Below are positions 5,293 through 46,593 of a DNA stretch of 64,000 nt, piece by piece. How positions within the stretch are numbered: position 1 is the stretch's first letter; every line of letters begins with the position of its first letter. Under the pieces are notes generated by a model. That model was not told the origin of the DNA, searched no databases, and saw nothing but the letters and a program-made list of their open reading frames with translations. Both the position numbers and the translations under genes were made by a program. This DNA is from Candidatus Chlorohelix allophototropha (lineage in GTDB: Bacteria; Chloroflexota; Chloroflexia; Chloroheliales; Chloroheliaceae): positions 2,764,799 to 2,828,798 of the forward strand of contig NZ_CP128399.1 in the NCBI RefSeq assembly GCF_030389965.1. The letters are read 5' to 3'.

Positions 5293-7647
5293 ATGTCCAC
5301 ACAATCTCTATCAGCCGGGAAACCCGGCAACCTCAAGGGTTTCTGGCAACAAGGTCAGACTTTATTTTTGGATTATGAAGGGGCAGTGCTGTCTATAACA
5401 GTGCTCGATAAAAATATGGTGCGTTTCAGGCTTGCTCCGGGAGGCACTTTTGCTAAGCGCCGAAGCTGGTCTGTAACAAGCCCCGATGAAGATTTTCCAG
5501 CTTCTCCCTATACTTTTACCCCAACACCCAATGGAATCGAAATAACTACCGAGACGCTATTGCTCAAACTGAGTAATGCAGGTGCAAGGATTTCGATTCT
5601 GAACAATCAAGGCTTGCTGATTAATGAAGATAGCAGCGAAGGGGCAGTCTTTTGGGAATCGGAAGGTAAAACCATTTGGCGCAAAACGATGCCGGAAGAT
5701 GAGCATTATTACGGGTTCGGTGAGCGCAGCGGGTTGCTGGACAAACGCGGCAGGCGCTACACCTGCTGGACTACCGACCCATGGCAATATACTTCCGATC
5801 ACGGACCGGGCGCGGACTCGCTATATCAGGCGATTCCGTTCTTTATGGCGCTACGCCAAGAAACTGGCTGTTATGGAATTTATCTGAACAATACCCACCG
5901 CACCGCTTTCGATATGGGAAACCCGCGCTCGAACCAGTACAGTATCGAAATCGAAGGTGGCGAAATGGACTATTACTTTATATACGGACCTGAACCGGCA
6001 CAGGTGCTTGAACGCTACACCTTCCTTACAGGTAGGATGCCCATGCCTCCGCGTTGGGCGTTAGGCTATCACCAGAGCCGTTGGAGTTATGATAACGAAC
6101 AGATTGTGCGGGGGATTGCCAGCCAATTCCGGGAAAGAGGTATCCCCGCTGAAGTAATACATCTAGACATTGACTATATGGATGAGTTCAGGGTGTTCAC
6201 ATGGAACAAAACCAATTTCCCTGACCCGGCAAAACTGATTTCTGATTTGAACGCGCAAGGTTTCAAGGTCGTAACAATAATTGACCCCGGTGTTAAGCAT
6301 CAGCCTGAAGGCGGTTATCATGTCTATTCGGAAGGTTCAGCCCAAGGTTACTTCATTACCAACCCGGACGGAACTGAATATACCGGATGTGTATGGCCCG
6401 GTACGAGCGTTTTCGCCGATTTTACCCGCACCGATGTGCGAAAATGGTGGAACGACCAGCATAATGAGCTATTAGCTGAAGGGGTAAAGGGCATCTGGAA
6501 CGATATGAATGAACCTGCCATCAGTCAGTACCCTTTTGGCACACCCAATAACCCGGTTGCTAGCCCGTCATTAGATGCGCCTATGGGTGACCCGGAAGAG
6601 CGTATAACTTTTGCCGAGGGCAAAAATGTTTACGGTCTCTTGATGGATCGAGCCACGCACGAAGCTATGTTGCGCTTTAACCCGAACGAACGCCCCTTCA
6701 TGCTAACTCGTTCTGGGGCTGCCGGTATTCAGCGATACAGCACTGTTTGGTCGGGCGATAACCTCACGTTGTGGGAACATTTGGAAATGAGTATCGCGGA
6801 AATTTGCAACTGGAGCTTATCGGGAGTTGGTTTTTCGGGCGTGGACATCGGCGGGTTTGGCGGACATGGTACGCCTGAACTATTCGCCCGCTGGATACAA
6901 TTGGGCGCATTCTATCCTTTCTCGCGCGGTCACAGTATTGAGAAAGTATCCCAGAAAGAGCCGTGGACATGGGGCAGCGAAGTGGAAGAAATTAGCCGCC
7001 GCGCTCTAACTCTACGCTACCGCTTGATGCCCTATCTCTACTCGCTGTTTTACACTGCCGCGCAAACGGGCGCACCTATCTGGCAACCACTTCTTTATCA
7101 GTTCTCCAAAGATACTACAACTTATCAGATTTCAGATCAGGTAATGGTGGGGCATGCCATTATGCTTGCGCCGATTTGCCGCCCCGGACAAACCACCCGC
7201 GCCGTGTATATGCCAGAAGGAGTCTGGTACGATTTCTGGAGTGACGAACGCTTGACCAAACCCGGTTACAGATTGGTGGAAGCCGAGCTTGATACAATCC
7301 CTATGTTTATGCGTGGCGGAACCATTGTGCCTTTTGGTACTGAAATGCAATACAGTGACGAGAAACCGCTAGATTTAATAACACTAGAAGTTTACCCAGA
7401 TGCTAATGGAAGCGCCACCGGAGTGCTATATGAGGATGACGGGCATAGCTTCGGCTACCAGCACGGCGAATTTTGCCTGACTCGCTTCCAATGCGCTGTC
7501 GAAAACGGAAAGACAAAGATTTCCGCACAGCGACAGGGACAATATGCCCCTGCGCCACGTGCTATCGAGATATGGGTACATGGTGAGGGTGAAGCACGTA
7601 GCTACCAATTGCCACGCGACAGTGGCAACTGGCAAGTAGAGGTTTAG
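5293..7647 (+). CDS. alpha-glucosidase, glycoside hydrolase family 31
   Basis: 784 residues, normal family length. An N-terminal beta-sandwich (about 1-240, with YGFGERSG) is followed by a TIM barrel (about 245-590). The catalytic nucleophile is Asp404 in GIWNDMNEP and the acid/base is Asp489 in WSGDN. C-terminal beta domains carry the usual TTRAVYMPEGVWYDFWSDE motif. No signal peptide is visible, so it is probably cytoplasmic and releases glucose from alpha-glucosides or maltooligosaccharides; xylosidase activity in this family cannot be excluded. SD AAAGGA lies 9 bases before the ATG. A nucleoside phosphorylase gene follows after 2 bases, implying one transcript. Confidence 0.93.
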   Translation: MSTQSLSAGKPGNLKGFWQQGQTLFLDYEGAVLSITVLDKNMVRFRLAPGGTFAKRRSWSVTSPDEDFPASPYTFTPTPNGIEITTETLLLKLSNAGARISILNNQGLLINEDSSEGAVFWESEGKTIWRKTMPEDEHYYGFGERSGLLDKRGRRYTCWTTDPWQYTSDHGPGADSLYQAIPFFMALRQETGCYGIYLNNTHRTAFDMGNPRSNQYSIEIEGGEMDYYFIYGPEPAQVLERYTFLTGRMPMPPRWALGYHQSRWSYDNEQIVRGIASQFRERGIPAEVIHLDIDYMDEFRVFTWNKTNFPDPAKLISDLNAQGFKVVTIIDPGVKHQPEGGYHVYSEGSAQGYFITNPDGTEYTGCVWPGTSVFADFTRTDVRKWWNDQHNELLAEGVKGIWNDMNEPAISQYPFGTPNNPVASPSLDAPMGDPEERITFAEGKNVYGLLMDRATHEAMLRFNPNERPFMLTRSGAAGIQRYSTVWSGDNLTLWEHLEMSIAEICNWSLSGVGFSGVDIGGFGGHGTPELFARWIQLGAFYPFSRGHSIEKVSQKEPWTWGSEVEEISRRALTLRYRLMPYLYSLFYTAAQTGAPIWQPLLYQFSKDTTTYQISDQVMVGHAIMLAPICRPGQTTRAVYMPEGVWYDFWSDERLTKPGYRLVEAELDTIPMFMRGGTIVPFGTEMQYSDEKPLDLITLEVYPDANGSATGVLYEDDGHSFGYQHGEFCLTRFQCAVENGKTKISAQRQGQYAPAPRAIEIWVHGEGEARSYQLPRDSGNWQVEV

Positions 7648-41581: not shown

Positions 41582-41880
41582 TCAAAATCGTCCAAAAGAC
41601 CCGGTAATAGCCAAACTCACGCTGCCAAGCGGATCTCTGTGCAGACCACAGTCCCGCCTGTAGCCAATTGCTTGACCGCTATTACTTACCGCCGAACTGG
41701 AGGTGTTCCTTCCTTACTCTAGCGCTATCCTCTTCTCAACTTCCACCCACATAATAGGCGGTGACGCCGTTCCGCCCCTTCGCTACTCTCGCCCCACCTC
41801 CGTTACCCCATCCACTAGCGTGCTGACGCTCACCGGCTTGCAAATTAGCTCACAACATAGCATCATATGCGCTAGTTTCA
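41582..41880 (-). pseudogene. RHS/YD-repeat protein fragment
   Basis: Read on the minus strand, pieces in different frames match the RHS core: NGVTAYYVGG, then FGGK with VIAVKQL in a shifted frame, then LHRDPLGSVSLA. In-frame stops and frameshifts separate them, and it ends in a stop after unrelated residues. Bases 41615-41702 are about 93% identical to 43633-43720. The sequence is non-functional and is the part of an RHS gene that would follow the piece at 42600-42805. Confidence 0.75.
41615..41702. repeat. 88-bp direct repeat, copy 1 (copy 2 at 43633-43720)
   Basis: The two copies differ at six positions by eye (about 93% identity) and lie 2 kb apart in the same orientation. Both carry the RHS segment ending in LHGDxLGSVSLA on the minus strand. 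They are the best visible substrate for recombination that deletes or swaps the cassettes between them. Confidence 0.8.
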
Positions 41881-41945
41881 CATGCTACAATAAAGAAAGC
41901 GAAGTTTTCTCAGGTCGTAGGCTAGTGAACATTGGAGGCGGGAGC

Positions 41946-42566
41946 ATGTTTCAGCCCAACAAACCTTTCTACCCAGTAGAAGAATATCTCTGGAAAGAGC
42001 AACGAGCCAATATTAAAAACGAATATTTCGATGGGCAGATTTATTCGATGGCTGGTGGTAGCCCGGAGCATAGTCAGATTCAGGCTAATATCATTCTAGA
42101 ACTGGGTACACTTTTACGAGGTAAAGATTGCCGGGTATTAACCAGCGACCTTAAAATTGGGGTGGAAGATAAGGCTGAGCTAAAAGCGCGAAGTGGGCGA
42201 AAAAAAAGCAGGGATTTTATCACCTACCCGGATGCCAGTGTGATTTGTGGTCAACTGCAATTTTATCGTGGGGATCGTTTCACGGTTGCCAACCCACTTA
42301 TTCTGTTTGAGGTGCTAAGCCCTTCAACTCGCAACTATGATACCAGCTTCAAATTAGAGCATTACCAGCGAATTACCAGCCTAAAAGCCTATATCATGCT
42401 TGATTCTGAGAGGATTTGGGTGCAGAGTTGCCAGCGGATCGGGGATGAAAACCGCTGGATTCTGGAAGAGCCTTTGGAAGATTTAGAAGATGTGCTACGG
42501 TTGGAAGCTTTAGGACTGGAAATACCCCTAAGTCAGCTATATGAGCGCGTAGAATTTGAGGAATAA
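41946..42566 (+). CDS. Uma2 family endonuclease-fold protein (DUF820)
   Basis: 206 residues from the ATG at 41946, with GGAGG 7 bases upstream; the frame is open further upstream, but that part overlaps RHS remnants. Features of the Uma2/PD-(D/E)XK-like fold are YFDGQIYSMAGGSPEHSQIQANI, the DASVICG strand, and LILFEVLSPSTRNYDTSFKLEHYQRITSLKAYIMLD, which holds the Glu and Lys of the presumed active site. The family is common in many copies in Chloroflexota and cyanobacteria, and its targets are unknown. It is on the plus strand, between two minus-strand RHS fragments. Confidence 0.85.
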   Translation: MFQPNKPFYPVEEYLWKEQRANIKNEYFDGQIYSMAGGSPEHSQIQANIILELGTLLRGKDCRVLTSDLKIGVEDKAELKARSGRKKSRDFITYPDASVICGQLQFYRGDRFTVANPLILFEVLSPSTRNYDTSFKLEHYQRITSLKAYIMLDSERIWVQSCQRIGDENRWILEEPLEDLEDVLRLEALGLEIPLSQLYERVEFEE

Positions 42567-42599
42567 CCCGTGAGTTCAATCGCGGCACTTGCCTCCTAG

Positions 42600-42805
42600 A
42601 GTTTGAACTCGGCGAAATGCCGATAGGTTTCGAACGCAAAGTGGAATATGCCGTTGGCATCGTAGCCGTAGTTCTGTCCCCCCACGCTTGATGGAGTATG
42701 CGGTCGCGGCTGCCCGCCCACCGGATATGCTTCCGTCACTCCAGCCTTTGAGGTGATGTTCCCGATGGTGTCGTACTGGTAGCTCTCGTCGTACCCCGCC
42801 GGCCC
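42600..42805 (-). pseudogene. RHS/YD-repeat protein fragment
   Basis: On the minus strand the frame reads YDESYQYDTIGNITSKAG, then TPSSVGGQNYGYDANG, two clear YD-type repeat units. Homology stops abruptly at YDANG (about 42646), followed by unrelated residues and a stop. No start codon or upstream RHS body is present. It is a truncated remnant. Confidence 0.8.
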
Positions 42806-42912
42806 GAAAACTGATAGATTTTGAGGATATTAAACAGCTTTGCGATCAAACTAATCAGATCAATTTTATCAATTATCTTGGTTATAACCAGTCTACACTA
42901 ATACTATTTCAT

Positions 42913-43428
42913 CTAAATCGTAGAGTAAAAAATATCGCTGTTAGCAACTAACTGTAAAGATTTGAAATAGTGAGATCTTCTATAATCTTCCTCATAATAC
43001 TTAAAATCGTCCCCACCTAGAAGATCCTTGAAATCTTCGGGAAGGGAAGGGCGATATAAGGCTAAAGCGTATTCTGGGAACAGATAAGAATAACCTAACT
43101 CGAAATCGTCCTTGTCATATGGCGTTTCTTTACCTAATATCTCAATTAATTCTTCAACTCTAATATTGAATATATCAATGTTTCGATAATGTACACTAAT
43201 TTCCTTATTTACATCCACTCCAATCTGTATAACCTTACCATCACTGGCTGAGTAAGCAACTACATAAGAATTGTGGTAATAAAAGGTCTGGTTCTCTTCA
43301 CCCGGTGGTACACCTTCTGGAAGTACTGATGATGGTGCAACAGGCATTGCAGCATATACTTCAGCTCTAGTCATATCGAATTTAACTGGGCCTATACCCA
43401 CTTTTGGTAATAATTGATATACTTCCAT
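42913..43428 (-). CDS. unknown protein, possible orphan immunity protein of an RHS toxin
   Basis: 171 residues, soluble, acidic and AT-rich. I do not recognise it with certainty. The opening VGIGPVKFDMTRAEVYAAM resembles a start seen in many small proteins encoded beside polymorphic toxins. It begins 11 bases after the last readable RHS core motif (DPQVGKFVSSDT), with AAAGG upstream of the ATG, just where a toxin tip or immunity gene would sit. It is in a different frame from that motif, so it is a separate ORF. The function is inferred from position only. Confidence 0.55.
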   Translation of the reverse strand: MEVYQLLPKVGIGPVKFDMTRAEVYAAMPVAPSSVLPEGVPPGEENQTFYYHNSYVVAYSASDGKVIQIGVDVNKEISVHYRNIDIFNIRVEELIEILGKETPYDKDDFELGYSYLFPEYALALYRPSLPEDFKDLLGGDDFKYYEEDYRRSHYFKSLQLVANSDIFYSTI

Positions 43429-43439
43429 TTGTTACCTTT

Positions 43440-43742
43440 ATAATCTATCGTATCGCTGGAGACGAACTTTCCAACTTGCGGGTCATATGTAGAAGAGTAG
43501 CCCTGTCCCGTCTAGCCTCTGCCCTGTGTAGTTCATACTGGTCTGGCTGATGCCTCCCAGCCACACCTTGCCCCAAGCGTTATACTCCACTCCTGCTGGC
43601 TGGCAACTGTTCCACTGCTATCAGTAGCAAGGCTCACACTGCCAAGCTGGTCTCCGTGCAGACCACAGTCCCGCCTGTATCCAGTTGCTTGACCGCTATT
43701 ACTTACCGCCGAACTGGAGAATTTAAGAAGTTTAACTACCAC
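43440..43742 (-). pseudogene. RHS core C-terminal fragment, frameshifted
   Basis: On the minus strand the pieces read LHGDQLGSVSLATDSSGTV, then NAWGKV, LGGISQTSMNYTGQRLDGTGLLFY and YDPQVGKFVSSDT. This is the end of the RHS core up to the conserved DPxxGxFxSxDT. At least two frame changes are needed: one at a duplicated GAGTGGAGT before NAWGK, and one at LLFY, where several codons of the usual YNARYYDP are missing. The gene is broken. Confidence 0.85.
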
Positions 43743-44242
43743 AATAATTTCAAAGGCAAATTAAGCTTAATTGACTCCTCTGATCCTATTTTCAGCGTAG
43801 TGGCCAAATCTAAGATATCATCCCAAGTATATTCTGGATTATTAGTAGGAAAATTTAAGGCTAATAAACTCTTCAAGCCGTATATTTTAGTCTGCTCTTC
43901 CACCTTCCTTGTTACTCTACCTATCTCTTGTTGGAATACATAAGACGAACCTACCGAATAAGTACCGTAGCTTTCATCTTTAAGATAAAATGGTTTATCA
44001 AAAGAAGCCGGAATAAAAAAGACTGTACCTGTATAGCAACCATAATACTGGGGGAACAAATTATATTCTTCCTCGGTAGCAAGAAAGGAGTCAAATTCTG
44101 GGTAATTCAATGGGAATTTTTCGCCTCTTATAATGGCCAAGCTAACTCTCTTGAGAGCATAAAATCTGCTTGCCATGGCTGAAGTTTCTATAGACCCAGT
44201 AATTTCTGAAGGCTCTTCCCAGGGTATCTTTTCCCAACCCAT
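43736..44242 (-). CDS. unknown protein, possibly a truncated RHS-locus cassette
   Basis: 168 residues, AT-rich, no known family seen. Aromatic-rich segments (EEYNLFPQYYGCYTGTVFFIP, ESYGTYSVGSSYVF) suggest a compact folded domain. The ATG at 44242 has no SD, and the frame stays open and protein-like upstream to about 44332 (RVIYQRKRVEQIREYM) without a start codon. It may therefore be the tail of a longer protein that lost its 5' part. Its end overlaps the beginning of the RHS C-terminal fragment by 7 bases. It could be an immunity gene or a toxin tip. Confidence 0.45.
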   Translation of the reverse strand: MGWEKIPWEEPSEITGSIETSAMASRFYALKRVSLAIIRGEKFPLNYPEFDSFLATEEEYNLFPQYYGCYTGTVFFIPASFDKPFYLKDESYGTYSVGSSYVFQQEIGRVTRKVEEQTKIYGLKSLLALNFPTNNPEYTWDDILDLATTLKIGSEESIKLNLPLKLLW

Positions 44243-44385
44243 ATATTCACGAATCTGCTCTACCCTTTTCCTCTGGTAAATAACCCGTGCAGGTGGACCA
44301 CCTACTCTTTTTATAAGTGAAAAGGGGTCTGTCTATAATACTAGCAACTTCAATTCCTATTCCCATTTTTAAGTACCACGATAAA

Positions 44386-44982
44386 TTATTCTGCCTTAAT
44401 CAGTGGAGCAATGATATTTTCACAAAAGTAATTGTATAAAACTTTACGTTCTTCGTCTTTTACAAAATCCCTTTTTGCGTCTTCTCGCAAACCATTTAAC
44501 ATATTTTCAAGGGTTGTTTCATCAAATCCCATAAAAAATCTCAATGTTTCTTCATCAAGTGAGATTCCCTGAGAATCTGAGATCTTCAAATGCAAAAATT
44601 GCTGTAACTGAACTATTTTAGAATTTCTAATTTCATGCAAATTACTAAATTTTATCGGTAATTGTAAAATCTTAAGGGTAAAAGTTATAATGGAGTAGAG
44701 TACAAAATCTTCCGATAAGGTTTTTGTAAGTTTAACACATAATTTCTTGAATCTTTTGTAGCTATAATTTGGTACTTTCAAGGGCATAAATAGCTCAGTG
44801 TCGCCTGGATCGAAAAAAACTTTAGGTTCTAAAATGGAAAAATAAGTTTGTGGGAAAATAGCATCACGCTTTTTAGGGTCTATTTCATCAAGTATCTCAA
44901 AAAACATAGAGAGCTTAACAAAAGGGGGTTTTAACAAGTACTTAATGTGTTCGGGATGAAAAAAAGCTAGTTCATTCATCAT
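44386..44982 (-). CDS. unknown protein, 198 aa
   Basis: No family is recognised. It is AT-rich and rich in Phe, Leu and Lys, helical, with no signal peptide or clear membrane helix. Segments such as PEHIKYLLKPPFVKLSMFFEILDEIDP and GFDETTLENMLNGLREDAKRDF look like a folded soluble domain. The base composition differs from the flanking housekeeping genes, which suggests recent acquisition. It is the first ORF of the minus-strand group that runs into the RHS fragments, so an immunity-like role is possible but unproven. Confidence 0.5.
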   Translation of the reverse strand: MMNELAFFHPEHIKYLLKPPFVKLSMFFEILDEIDPKKRDAIFPQTYFSILEPKVFFDPGDTELFMPLKVPNYSYKRFKKLCVKLTKTLSEDFVLYSIITFTLKILQLPIKFSNLHEIRNSKIVQLQQFLHLKISDSQGISLDEETLRFFMGFDETTLENMLNGLREDAKRDFVKDEERKVLYNYFCENIIAPLIKAE

Positions 44983-45318
44983 ACAATTTTACGGTATCTT
45001 CTACTGAAAACATAAACAACACAAATTGATAGGCGTTCGTCTGGTAGCGGACAATCACTCTGAACTTGGTTAAGTTCCTTTTATCTCTTGTGTCCGATCT
45101 AGTCCTATCCCTTACAATTTAAATCATTCCAAATGCCTCTATAAAAGCATCTTTTCTACTCGATTTGGGCTATAATGCTGACCTCTCGCTTAAGCACCTT
45201 TTAAATACTAATCAACAATAAGCCCAATTTCATGTGCTAAAAATTGAGGGAACTCAAAGTTGTCACTACCCTAATGAAAATTTATAGTGTTTTGCCTCCA
45301 TCGGCTAAACCGCCAGCA
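44983..45318. other. intergenic region between the cassette group and thrC
   Basis: About 336 bases in which I see no gene. No convincing terminator for the minus-strand cassette genes is seen, and thrC ends at 45319 without an obvious hairpin. A TATAAT (about 45170) has no good -35 partner. Confidence 0.4.
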
Positions 45319-46593
45319 TTAATTCTCTTCCAGCAACTTCATCAAATCGTCCAGCGTACCTGCCATTTGCACCAAAGGATTTGCACCGGGATTCGCCGGA
45401 TTGCTGTGGTAGTTCACAATACTATCGGCATCTTTCAGGATATGCCCGGTCATGATTGCCACTACCCGGTCGCCCTTCCCGATAATTTCCTTCTCGCGCA
45501 GTTTGCGGACACCTGCCAGAGTTGCGCCTGCCGCCGGTTCGCCACCGATACCGCTGCGATCAAGTACCGCCTTCGCCTCCATTATCTCGGTGTCGGTTAC
45601 CATATCAACCACGCCGTCCGTCCACTCAATGGCGCGGCGGGCTTTGGCAAGGTTCACCGGATTGCCGATGCGGATAGCGGTTGCCACCGTTTCAGGTTTT
45701 TGTGCCTTGAAGCGGGTAAACTCGCTGCGATAATATTGGTAGAAAGGGCTTGCTCCTTCAGCTTGAATAGTGGCAATACGTGGCAGTTTTTCGCCAATCA
45801 AACCGAGTTCGCGCATTTCCCAAAGGGCTTTGCCAAAAGCGGAGGTATTGCCGAGGTTTCCACCCGACACCACAATCCAATCCGGCGCTTGCCAATCCAA
45901 TTGCTGTAGCGCCTCGAAAATGATAGTTTTCTGCCCTTCCAACCGGAAAGGATTGAGCGAGTTTACTAGATACACGCCCTTTTCCTTGCTCACGCGCCTT
46001 ACCAATTCCAGCGCATCATCGAAGCTACCCTCGACCTGTACGGTTTTAGCCCCGTATGCCATAGTCTGGCTCAATTTGCCTAGCGCGACCTTGCCGGAAG
46101 GAATGAAGGTAAGGGCTTTTAGTCCGGCACGTGCGGCATAGCCCGCCAGTGAAGCGGAAGTATTGCCGCTACTGGCACAAGCCACATATTTTGCCCCGAT
46201 CCAGTTGGCGTGGCTGATACCCACCGTCATGCCGCGATCTTTGAAAGAACCGGTAGGGTTTTCGCCTTCGTGTTTGAGCCACAGGTTTTCCAACCCTGCC
46301 CACTTTGCCAGGCGCGCATCCTCATAAAGATTTGTGTTCCCCTCGTTGCGGGACACAATCGCTTCGTTGGGAAAAGGCGCAACCAATTCGCGCCAACGCC
46401 ATACGCCGCTACCGTTGGGAAATCCGCGCTCAACTCGCCGCTTCTCAGCCCACTCGCGGGTGATAACCCCTTTCAAAGCTTCGAGGTCGTGTTTTACCTC
46501 TAGCAAACCGTCACAAGTTTCACAACCCGATATTGCAGCGCTAAGTGCATATTCGCGCCCGCACTGGATACAAACCACTTTAGTTTCCAACAT
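45319..46593 (-). CDS. thrC: threonine synthase
   Basis: 424 residues. It converts O-phosphohomoserine to threonine using pyridoxal phosphate. The PLP lysine is in NPTGSFKDRGMT; the phosphate loop region is ACASSGNTSASLAGYAARAG, followed by VSGGNLGNTSAFGKAL. The N-terminus has a zinc-ribbon-like pattern (CIQCGREY...CETCDG), as in several bacterial and archaeal threonine synthases. The start overlaps the end of asd by 14 bases, so translation is coupled. The operon is preceded by a T-box leader. Confidence 0.95.
   Translation of the reverse strand: MLETKVVCIQCGREYALSAAISGCETCDGLLEVKHDLEALKGVITREWAEKRRVERGFPNGSGVWRWRELVAPFPNEAIVSRNEGNTNLYEDARLAKWAGLENLWLKHEGENPTGSFKDRGMTVGISHANWIGAKYVACASSGNTSASLAGYAARAGLKALTFIPSGKVALGKLSQTMAYGAKTVQVEGSFDDALELVRRVSKEKGVYLVNSLNPFRLEGQKTIIFEALQQLDWQAPDWIVVSGGNLGNTSAFGKALWEMRELGLIGEKLPRIATIQAEGASPFYQYYRSEFTRFKAQKPETVATAIRIGNPVNLAKARRAIEWTDGVVDMVTDTEIMEAKAVLDRSGIGGEPAAGATLAGVRKLREKEIIGKGDRVVAIMTGHILKDADSIVNYHSNPANPGANPLVQMAGTLDDLMKLLEEN

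Follow-up and report, generated by a model that had tools for sequence, protein, structure and literature searches.

Why do three small AT-rich open reading frames (ORFs) stand among the pieces of a broken RHS gene? The question arises at one locus of Candidatus Chlorohelix allophototropha L227-S17, a phototrophic member of the Chloroflexota that reportedly employs a type I reaction center and whose genome is divided among two chromosomes (2.96 and 2.45 Mb), a 375-kb chromid, and two plasmids (241 and 55 kb) (PMC10972752, cited in part). The assembly holds 6,086,194 bases in five contigs (contig 2, 2,453,413 bases), and the stretch analyzed here, which we call the window, comprises 64,000 bases of contig 1 (2764799-2828798). 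A sequence-only reading of the window had proposed that the three ORFs, named ORF1, ORF2, and ORF3 below, are immunity genes kept after their toxins were lost, possibly of undescribed families. We observed a decayed array of RHS cassettes in which ORF1 directly follows a core end that lacks its toxin tip, and we somewhat favor the view that ORF1 would be a retained, stand-alone antidote.

ORF1 lies between RHS scraps, directly behind a tipless core end

On the minus strand, the elements follow one another 5' to 3' in the order ORF3, ORF2, RHS scrap A, ORF1, scrap B, a plus-strand Uma2-type gene, and scrap C (Table 1). All three scraps were aligned by blastn to the RHS locus on chromosome 2: scrap A over 43661-43447 (79%, E = 2e-51), scrap B over 42685-42649 (95%, E = 1e-9), and scrap C over 41796-41669 (68%, E = 3e-5). 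Their profile matches fell under the curated cut-offs, with 13.6 bits for RHS_repeat (cut-off 22) and 19.2 and 14.2 bits for Rhs_assc_core (cut-off 32.5), the 19.2-bit match being the last frame of scrap A. Compared with the RHS end on chromosome 2, scrap A has gained 5 bases and lost 11. Furthermore, its first 95 bases are 91% identical to the last 95 bases of scrap C, and both stretches carry the same losses of 1 base and 10 bases relative to a chromosome 2 scrap; because these losses are common to the two, the 95-base RHS piece was probably duplicated after its translation had ceased. We discounted a tblastn match between an RHS protein and positions 678-499 of the window, which fall in the proline-rich end of another gene.

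The core homology of scrap A stops at 43447 and the ATG of ORF1 lies at 43428, with no tip in the 18 bases between them. ORF1 has start signals of its own, the ATG and an AAAGG upstream of it. The sequence-only reading had put the start of ORF1 11 bases after the core end motif, which is roughly right, although the distance from the end of core homology is 18 bases and the figure of 11 depends on the motif end chosen. It had also placed all three ORFs beside RHS pieces on the same strand. ORF1 is indeed flanked on both sides, and scrap A starts 16 bases past the stop of ORF2; no RHS scrap adjoining ORF3 was found.

We observed all three ORFs on the minus strand at the coordinates proposed for them, and their composition is unlike that of their neighbors, as had been claimed. 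Their GC contents are 0.364 (ORF1), 0.375 (ORF2), and 0.310 (ORF3), against a mean of 0.485 (standard deviation 0.027) for 38 non-overlapping window ORFs of at least 200 residues. To judge coding status, we compared the proportions of nonsynonymous (pN) and synonymous (pS) differences for ORF1 and its paralogue (pN 0.36, pS 0.75), ORF1 and its relative in Chloroflexi bacterium 54-19 (pN 0.44, pS 0.74), and ORF2 and its 54-19 relative (pN 0.49, pS 0.79), the pS values all being near saturation. Because third codon positions were the most changed in all three comparisons and pN was lower than pS, ORF1 and ORF2 are, by their sequence comparisons, real genes. In 300 first-order Markov sequences modeled on 42560-45320, an ORF of at least 168 residues never arose, and one of at least 100 residues arose in 50. 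These controls and the coding constraint rule out that ORF1 and ORF2 are chance frames; for ORF3, its length alone counters that reading.

Table 1. Features of the window array, of the chromosome 2 array, and of two plasmid loci (L coordinates count within the locus named)
Feature	Coordinates	Strand	Remarks
ORF1	42913..43428	(-)	171 residues; candidate orphan immunity protein; GIGPVKFDMTR stretch near N-terminus
ORF2	43736..44242	(-)	168 residues; frame open to 44332
ORF3	44386..44982	(-)	198 residues
RHS scrap A	43447..43719	(-)	Core end (HGDQLGSVSLATD ... DPQVGKFVSSDT); toxin tip and last core part missing
Junction of scrap A and ORF1	43429..43446	(-)	18 bases; AAAGG six bases before ATG
RHS scrap B	42649..42829	(-)	Core middle (YQYDTIGNITSKAG ... 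VGGQNYGYDANG); downstream of ORF1
Uma2-type gene	41948..42566	(+)	PF05685, E = 3.5e-25; between scraps B and C
RHS scrap C	41608..41796	(-)	GARVAKGRNGVTAYYVGG ... QFGGK, running into the 95-base stretch
SUKH antidote gene	L012 6293-6835		PF09346, E = 2e-24
RHS scrap	L012 about 6887-6961		
AT-rich ORF	L012 6998-7549		No assigned family
Tip-like ORF	L012 8171-8842		71 residues, 46% to the post-PT-HINT part of an RHS protein of a same-family genome
RHS core end and ADPRTs_Tse2 tip	L012 9548-10531		PF18648, E = 4e-6, 27.9 bits (cut-off 26.6)
RHS scrap	L012 10897-11142		
ORF	L012 11529-12185		No assigned family
Tyrosine recombinase and DUF6262 genes before ORF1 relative	L020 3553-5473		
Tyrosine recombinase and DUF6262 genes before ORF1 relative	L025 1260-4898		

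A sister array on chromosome 2 retains toxin and antidote parts

That the window holds a decayed array of toxin/antidote cassettes is supported by a sister array on chromosome 2, since the latter has a SUKH antidote gene and an RHS end with a Tse2-like ADP-ribosyltransferase tip. A search with Rhs_assc_core gave one match in the genome, a 342-residue open frame in this array (locus L012, contig 2 1987000-2006000), and did not find a full-length RHS gene. The SUKH, tip-like, and unassigned ORFs of L012 have GC contents of 0.27-0.37, comparable to those of the window ORFs. Judged by its genes, L012 looks like a cassette array with recognizable toxin and antidote parts, and the window array resembles a more decayed version of it. 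The window ORFs, ORF3 included, were considered as relatives of the ORFs in L012 and rejected, there being no sequence kinship.

The Uma2-type gene of the window is possibly a later insertion into the RHS ruin, outside the cassette; the ORF as listed (41703-42566) has its start within scrap C, and we chose 41948 instead. Separately, we noted a CGCAAGGGGTGTCCCCTTGAACTCC-type repeat at about 11140-11395 of L012, next to the RHS array, and at 2247-2322 and 14826-14883 of L013, the locus of the ORF1 paralogue (blastn pieces of 40-78 bases), which may be a REP-like element. A same-family genome (G002, contig C175, locus L036) encodes an RHS protein with a PT-HINT domain and has a second PT-HINT frame further along.

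ORF1 represents a family without a profile model

ORF1 has a paralogue on chromosome 2 (51% identity) and a relative in 54-19, a genome of the same family (34%), the sole match among 60 other genomes. None was found in 399 other genomes drawn from the phylum, and matches among 158 genomes of the class were confined to its own genome and 54-19. A contig scan gave no relative with ORF1 alone and only 54-19 with profile A1. Likewise, pattern scans of viral contigs with ORF1 (A1) and three plasmid relatives, and a search of phages with ORF1, yielded no relative. A plasmid collection added nine records (two from Paenibacillus, six from Streptomyces, and one from Nonomuraea), bringing the relatives outside the window to 11. 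With ORF1 as query, three of the nine were recovered (E = 1e-5, 2e-3, and 1e-2); the S. collinus protein, whose match to a Paenibacillus member has E = 8e-7, led to the remainder. Several relatives are incomplete: that of L020 is annotated in two pieces, that of L021 covers 67% of the query, and those of L024 and L023 cover 48%. The paralogue, measured over a stretch offset by 12 bases, has a GC content of 0.375 in a locus of 0.487, and the 54-19 relative has 0.367 in a locus of 0.568.

Profile scans of ORF1, ORF2, and ORF3 against Pfam, NCBIfam, PHROGs, and PADLOC gave nothing above chance, and a sequence search of the PDB with ORF1, alone or as profile A3, gave nothing. By these searches, ORF1 is a member of a family that lacks a model in Pfam, NCBIfam, and PHROGs and is present in Chloroflexota, Paenibacillus, and Streptomyces.

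We then compared an AlphaFold2 model of ORF1 with known structures. In VIA-align, 24 of 590 chains reached Z of at least 2, among them 4ifa (6.6), 9j9w_A (6.3, over 119 residues at 7% identity), 4h0a (6.0), an IF2-TagH model (6.0), YjgB (5.4), TagH (4.9), BLIP chains (2.9-4.0), and BamE (2.3-3.1). We take most of these structural neighbors to be BLIP-like repeat proteins (BLIP, BamE, YjgB/DUF4309, CAP-associated domains), and the stretch GIGPVKFDMTRAEV of ORF1 presumably resembles a BamE-type start. The predicted fold would tentatively be one of helices on antiparallel sheets, BLIP-like. The 9J9W entry is a crystal structure of TseN-TsiN, an effector-immunity pair of the type VI secretion system (T6SS), in which the immunity protein combines four helices with a seven-stranded antiparallel sheet (PMC12574953, cited in part); from its length and fold, chain A would be TsiN.

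A proposed origin of ORF1 as a stand-alone antidote

An orphan immunity role of ORF1 is likely because a tipless RHS core lies upstream, a ribosome-binding-like site precedes its start, no profile model covers it, its composition is foreign, and a sister array exists in the same genome. We reasoned that an ancestral RHS toxin gene would have carried a variable tip, followed by an antidote gene. A deletion would then have taken away the tip along with the final part of the core and spared the antidote gene with its ribosome-binding site. ORF1, retained on its own, would act as an antidote by binding and blocking a toxin that neighbors deliver; its tentative fold, resembling that of the beta-lactamase inhibitor protein (BLIP), would suit an enzyme-binding inhibitor. 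ORF2 and ORF3 may have arrived as parts of this AT-rich array. ORF3 is possibly a further antidote or what remains of a toxin, and for ORF2 descent from a Chloroflexia gene family, as a stray member, would be about equally likely.

ORF2 is probably kin to a miaB-linked gene

A single relative of ORF2 was found among the 60 other genomes (54-19, E = 2e-9), and no RHS was found within about 9 kb of it. A profile of these two sequences, searched against 400 genomes, reached a gene in genome G396 at E = 0.0015 per genome, a first link that alone is possibly chance. The family of this gene (about 220 residues; L045 923-1588, L048-L075) lies directly beside, and upstream of, miaB at 27 of the 28 loci inspected, every one of them in a single taxonomic family and with miaB named by eye from sequence; the member tested matched no Pfam or NCBIfam model. 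Profile A5 matched 80 of the 158 class genomes, 76 of them once each, in five taxonomic families and with the own genome and 54-19 counted; as one of its three rows is the miaB-linked gene, this number mostly counts that gene family.

Two further tests kept ORF2 out of the profile. The 28-member family profile ranked the 54-19 gene (E = 0.015) and ORF2 (E = 0.11) first, weakly, above 1,082 background frames, the best unrelated frame of which had E = 3.4. In the profile-profile comparison, hhalign gave 93.2% over 124 columns for ORF2 and the miaB-linked family, and 86.8% with query and template swapped; the 21 controls stayed at or below 2.4% (20 column shuffles, at most 2.3%; reversed alignment, 2.4%). 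Kinship of ORF2 with the miaB-linked Chloroflexia gene, mainly in the C-terminal part, is therefore likely, and it counts against ORF2 as a dedicated antidote; an orphan immunity role of ORF2 is doubtful.

We consider it an evenly balanced question whether ORF2 would be a strayed, fast-changing copy of the miaB-linked gene, unrelated to immunity. The profile comparisons and the spread of the family across the class speak for this; however, the alignment is mainly C-terminal, the sequence-only E-values are weak, ORF2 is AT-rich and stands 16 bases from scrap A, and miaB lies beside neither ORF2 nor the 54-19 gene. A match of an ORF2 profile in contig C256 of genome G027 was rejected by eye as an FtsY-like gene, and A5 found another place in that genome. 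A PDB sequence search with ORF2 gave no convincing match (one, E = 0.015); plasmids, searched with ORF2 and its two relatives, and viral contigs, searched with ORF2 (A2), gave no relative. The single-sequence structure model of ORF2 (pLDDT 32) was useless.

Does the evidence favor an antidote or mobile cargo?

Besides the kinship of ORF2, several findings weigh against the antidote reading. The window retains no toxin tip, and none of the three ORFs, ORF1 included, matched a known immunity family of Pfam (Imm, SUKH, SuFu). Not one of the 11 relatives of ORF1 immediately follows an RHS gene or a gene annotated as a polymorphic toxin. For the two chromosomal loci, stretches of 16 and 17 kb were screened for RHS using queries able to find the window scraps; the plasmid loci were read from annotation or ORFs and screened with five RHS proteins whose matches were confined to L012 and missed the window scraps, so that decayed RHS at the plasmid loci could escape. 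The link of ORF1 to Streptomyces is indirect (E = 0.01 to S. collinus, and firmer via the Paenibacillus member only), and in L017 and L022 the ORF1 relative is not AT-richer than its own locus. The structural model is of moderate confidence (pLDDT 61, pTM 0.59, one relative in the alignment), Foldseek found no match to it at E of 0.001 or below in the PDB or BFVD, and its best Z of 6.6 is within the range reached by unrelated folds. ORF3 has no comparative support. Lastly, on a Paenibacillus amylolyticus plasmid (L017 3412-7540), the ORF1 relative comes just after an AAA ATPase gene and an ORF whose HNH and RnlA-toxin matches are sub-threshold, with a SocA-domain gene on its other side, a set of genes that looks more like a defense island.

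The same contexts would fit ORF1 as ordinary cargo of mobile or defense islands, for example a regulator or a phage-defense accessory, tolerated in RHS ruins and behind the core by chance. The own-genome and 54-19 relatives stand alone among genes that look housekeeping-like by eye, and some relatives are close to transposases or recombinases. At two of the nine plasmid loci, both from Streptomyces, the tyrosine recombinase and DUF6262 genes are followed 12 and 35 bases on by the ORF1 relative; that the nine are plasmid-borne is uninformative, as a plasmid collection was searched. Recombinases are known beside orphan immunity genes as well (PMC3482391, in part), and orphan immunity genes of the rAID type are recombinase-associated (PMC12247911, in part). 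Beside the window array, no recombinase was recognized by eye, without a profile search there. Against the cargo reading, ORF1 sits 18 bases after a core end, on the same strand, with another RHS scrap downstream, which is the antidote layout of a cassette array; the chromosome 2 array has a similar layout with SUKH and toxin parts, and no PADLOC model matches ORF1. We therefore regard cargo as possible, though on balance unlikely. In Nonomuraea gerenzanensis (L023 5001-7826), an unannotated stretch carries a fragment of an ORF1 relative and, about 1.2 kb off on the opposite strand, an RHS-repeat-like and a phospholipase-A2-like ORF, both under the Pfam cut-off.

Relatives of ORF3 were found neither in the 60 other genomes nor in plasmids or viral contigs, its best PDB sequence match had E = 0.21, and none of the three ORFs matched a toxin family in the Pfam and NCBIfam scans. 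It is improbable that ORF3, and perhaps ORF2 as well, represents a toxin tip or what is left of one: an AT-rich ORF of L012 (8171-8842) does match the tip region of an RHS protein, and the bases inspected upstream of ORF3 show no clear ribosome-binding site, but RHS scraps were not found directly ahead of ORF3, no toxin family matches it, and an active tip would be hard to keep without its antidote.

Overall, our analyses are most consistent with ORF1 as a retained antidote, and so, for this one ORF, its position, the missing tip, its start signals, and the sister array fit the proposal that immunity genes were kept after toxin loss; for ORF2, that proposal is in doubt. The suggestion of an undescribed family likewise fits ORF1. 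The sequence-only reading had named homologues lying mainly away from RHS as the sign that would tell against it, and this is in part what we found, for the relatives of ORF1 and for the miaB-linked kin of ORF2. We would go further only as speculation, namely that ORF1 may represent an undescribed, portable antidote family with a BLIP-like fold, outside the known Imm families, whose members in Chloroflexota, Bacillota, and Actinomycetota would mostly stand alone, some by recombinases and occasionally by a toxin gene.

Comparison with known systems

With this locus, a decayed array of toxin/antidote cassettes is recorded from a phototroph of the Chloroflexota that reportedly has a type I reaction center. 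ORF1 is a concrete candidate for a new antidote family, its relatives being spread over three phyla. It also illustrates how an antidote could outlive both its toxin and the carrier gene. A caution follows from ORF2, which probably shares ancestry with a family in about half of the Chloroflexia genomes searched: AT-rich small genes by RHS ruins may not all be antidotes. No description of the locus was found in the literature consulted, gene names not having been used as a query.

The predicted structure likens ORF1 to BLIP-like alpha-beta(4) repeat proteins, the group to which we assign most neighbors of the model; it differs from them in that Z is low, no ORF1 sequence match to a PDB chain was found, and the model is of moderate confidence. 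ORF1 is also like TsiN, the partner of TseN (PDB 9J9W; PMC12574953, in part), in size and in its helices on a largely antiparallel sheet, whereas TsiN belongs to a T6SS effector pair, the identity is 7%, and a Z of 6.3 does not establish kinship.

With polyimmunity loci (PMC3482391, in part) and rAID clusters (PMC12247911, in part), which are antidote stores of unrelated families, our findings share the recombinases by two ORF1 relatives; the window, in contrast, has no recognized immunity family or long tandem run, and recombinases were seen at plasmid relatives only. A closer likeness is to orphan rhs-CT and cdiA-CT-immunity modules (PMC3150448, cited in part), in which core fragments are followed by tip and antidote regions apart from the full-length gene, and the antidote has its own start signals. 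Unlike those modules, the window lacks a tip, its core pieces are frameshifted, and the search of the genome did not turn up a full-length RHS gene. In Serratia, stand-alone Rhs immunity genes follow a complete Rhs-RhsI pair and their protection has been shown (PMC10539506, in part), whereas the window array is an RHS ruin known from its sequence; what the two would have in common is that antidotes are kept without a matching tip.

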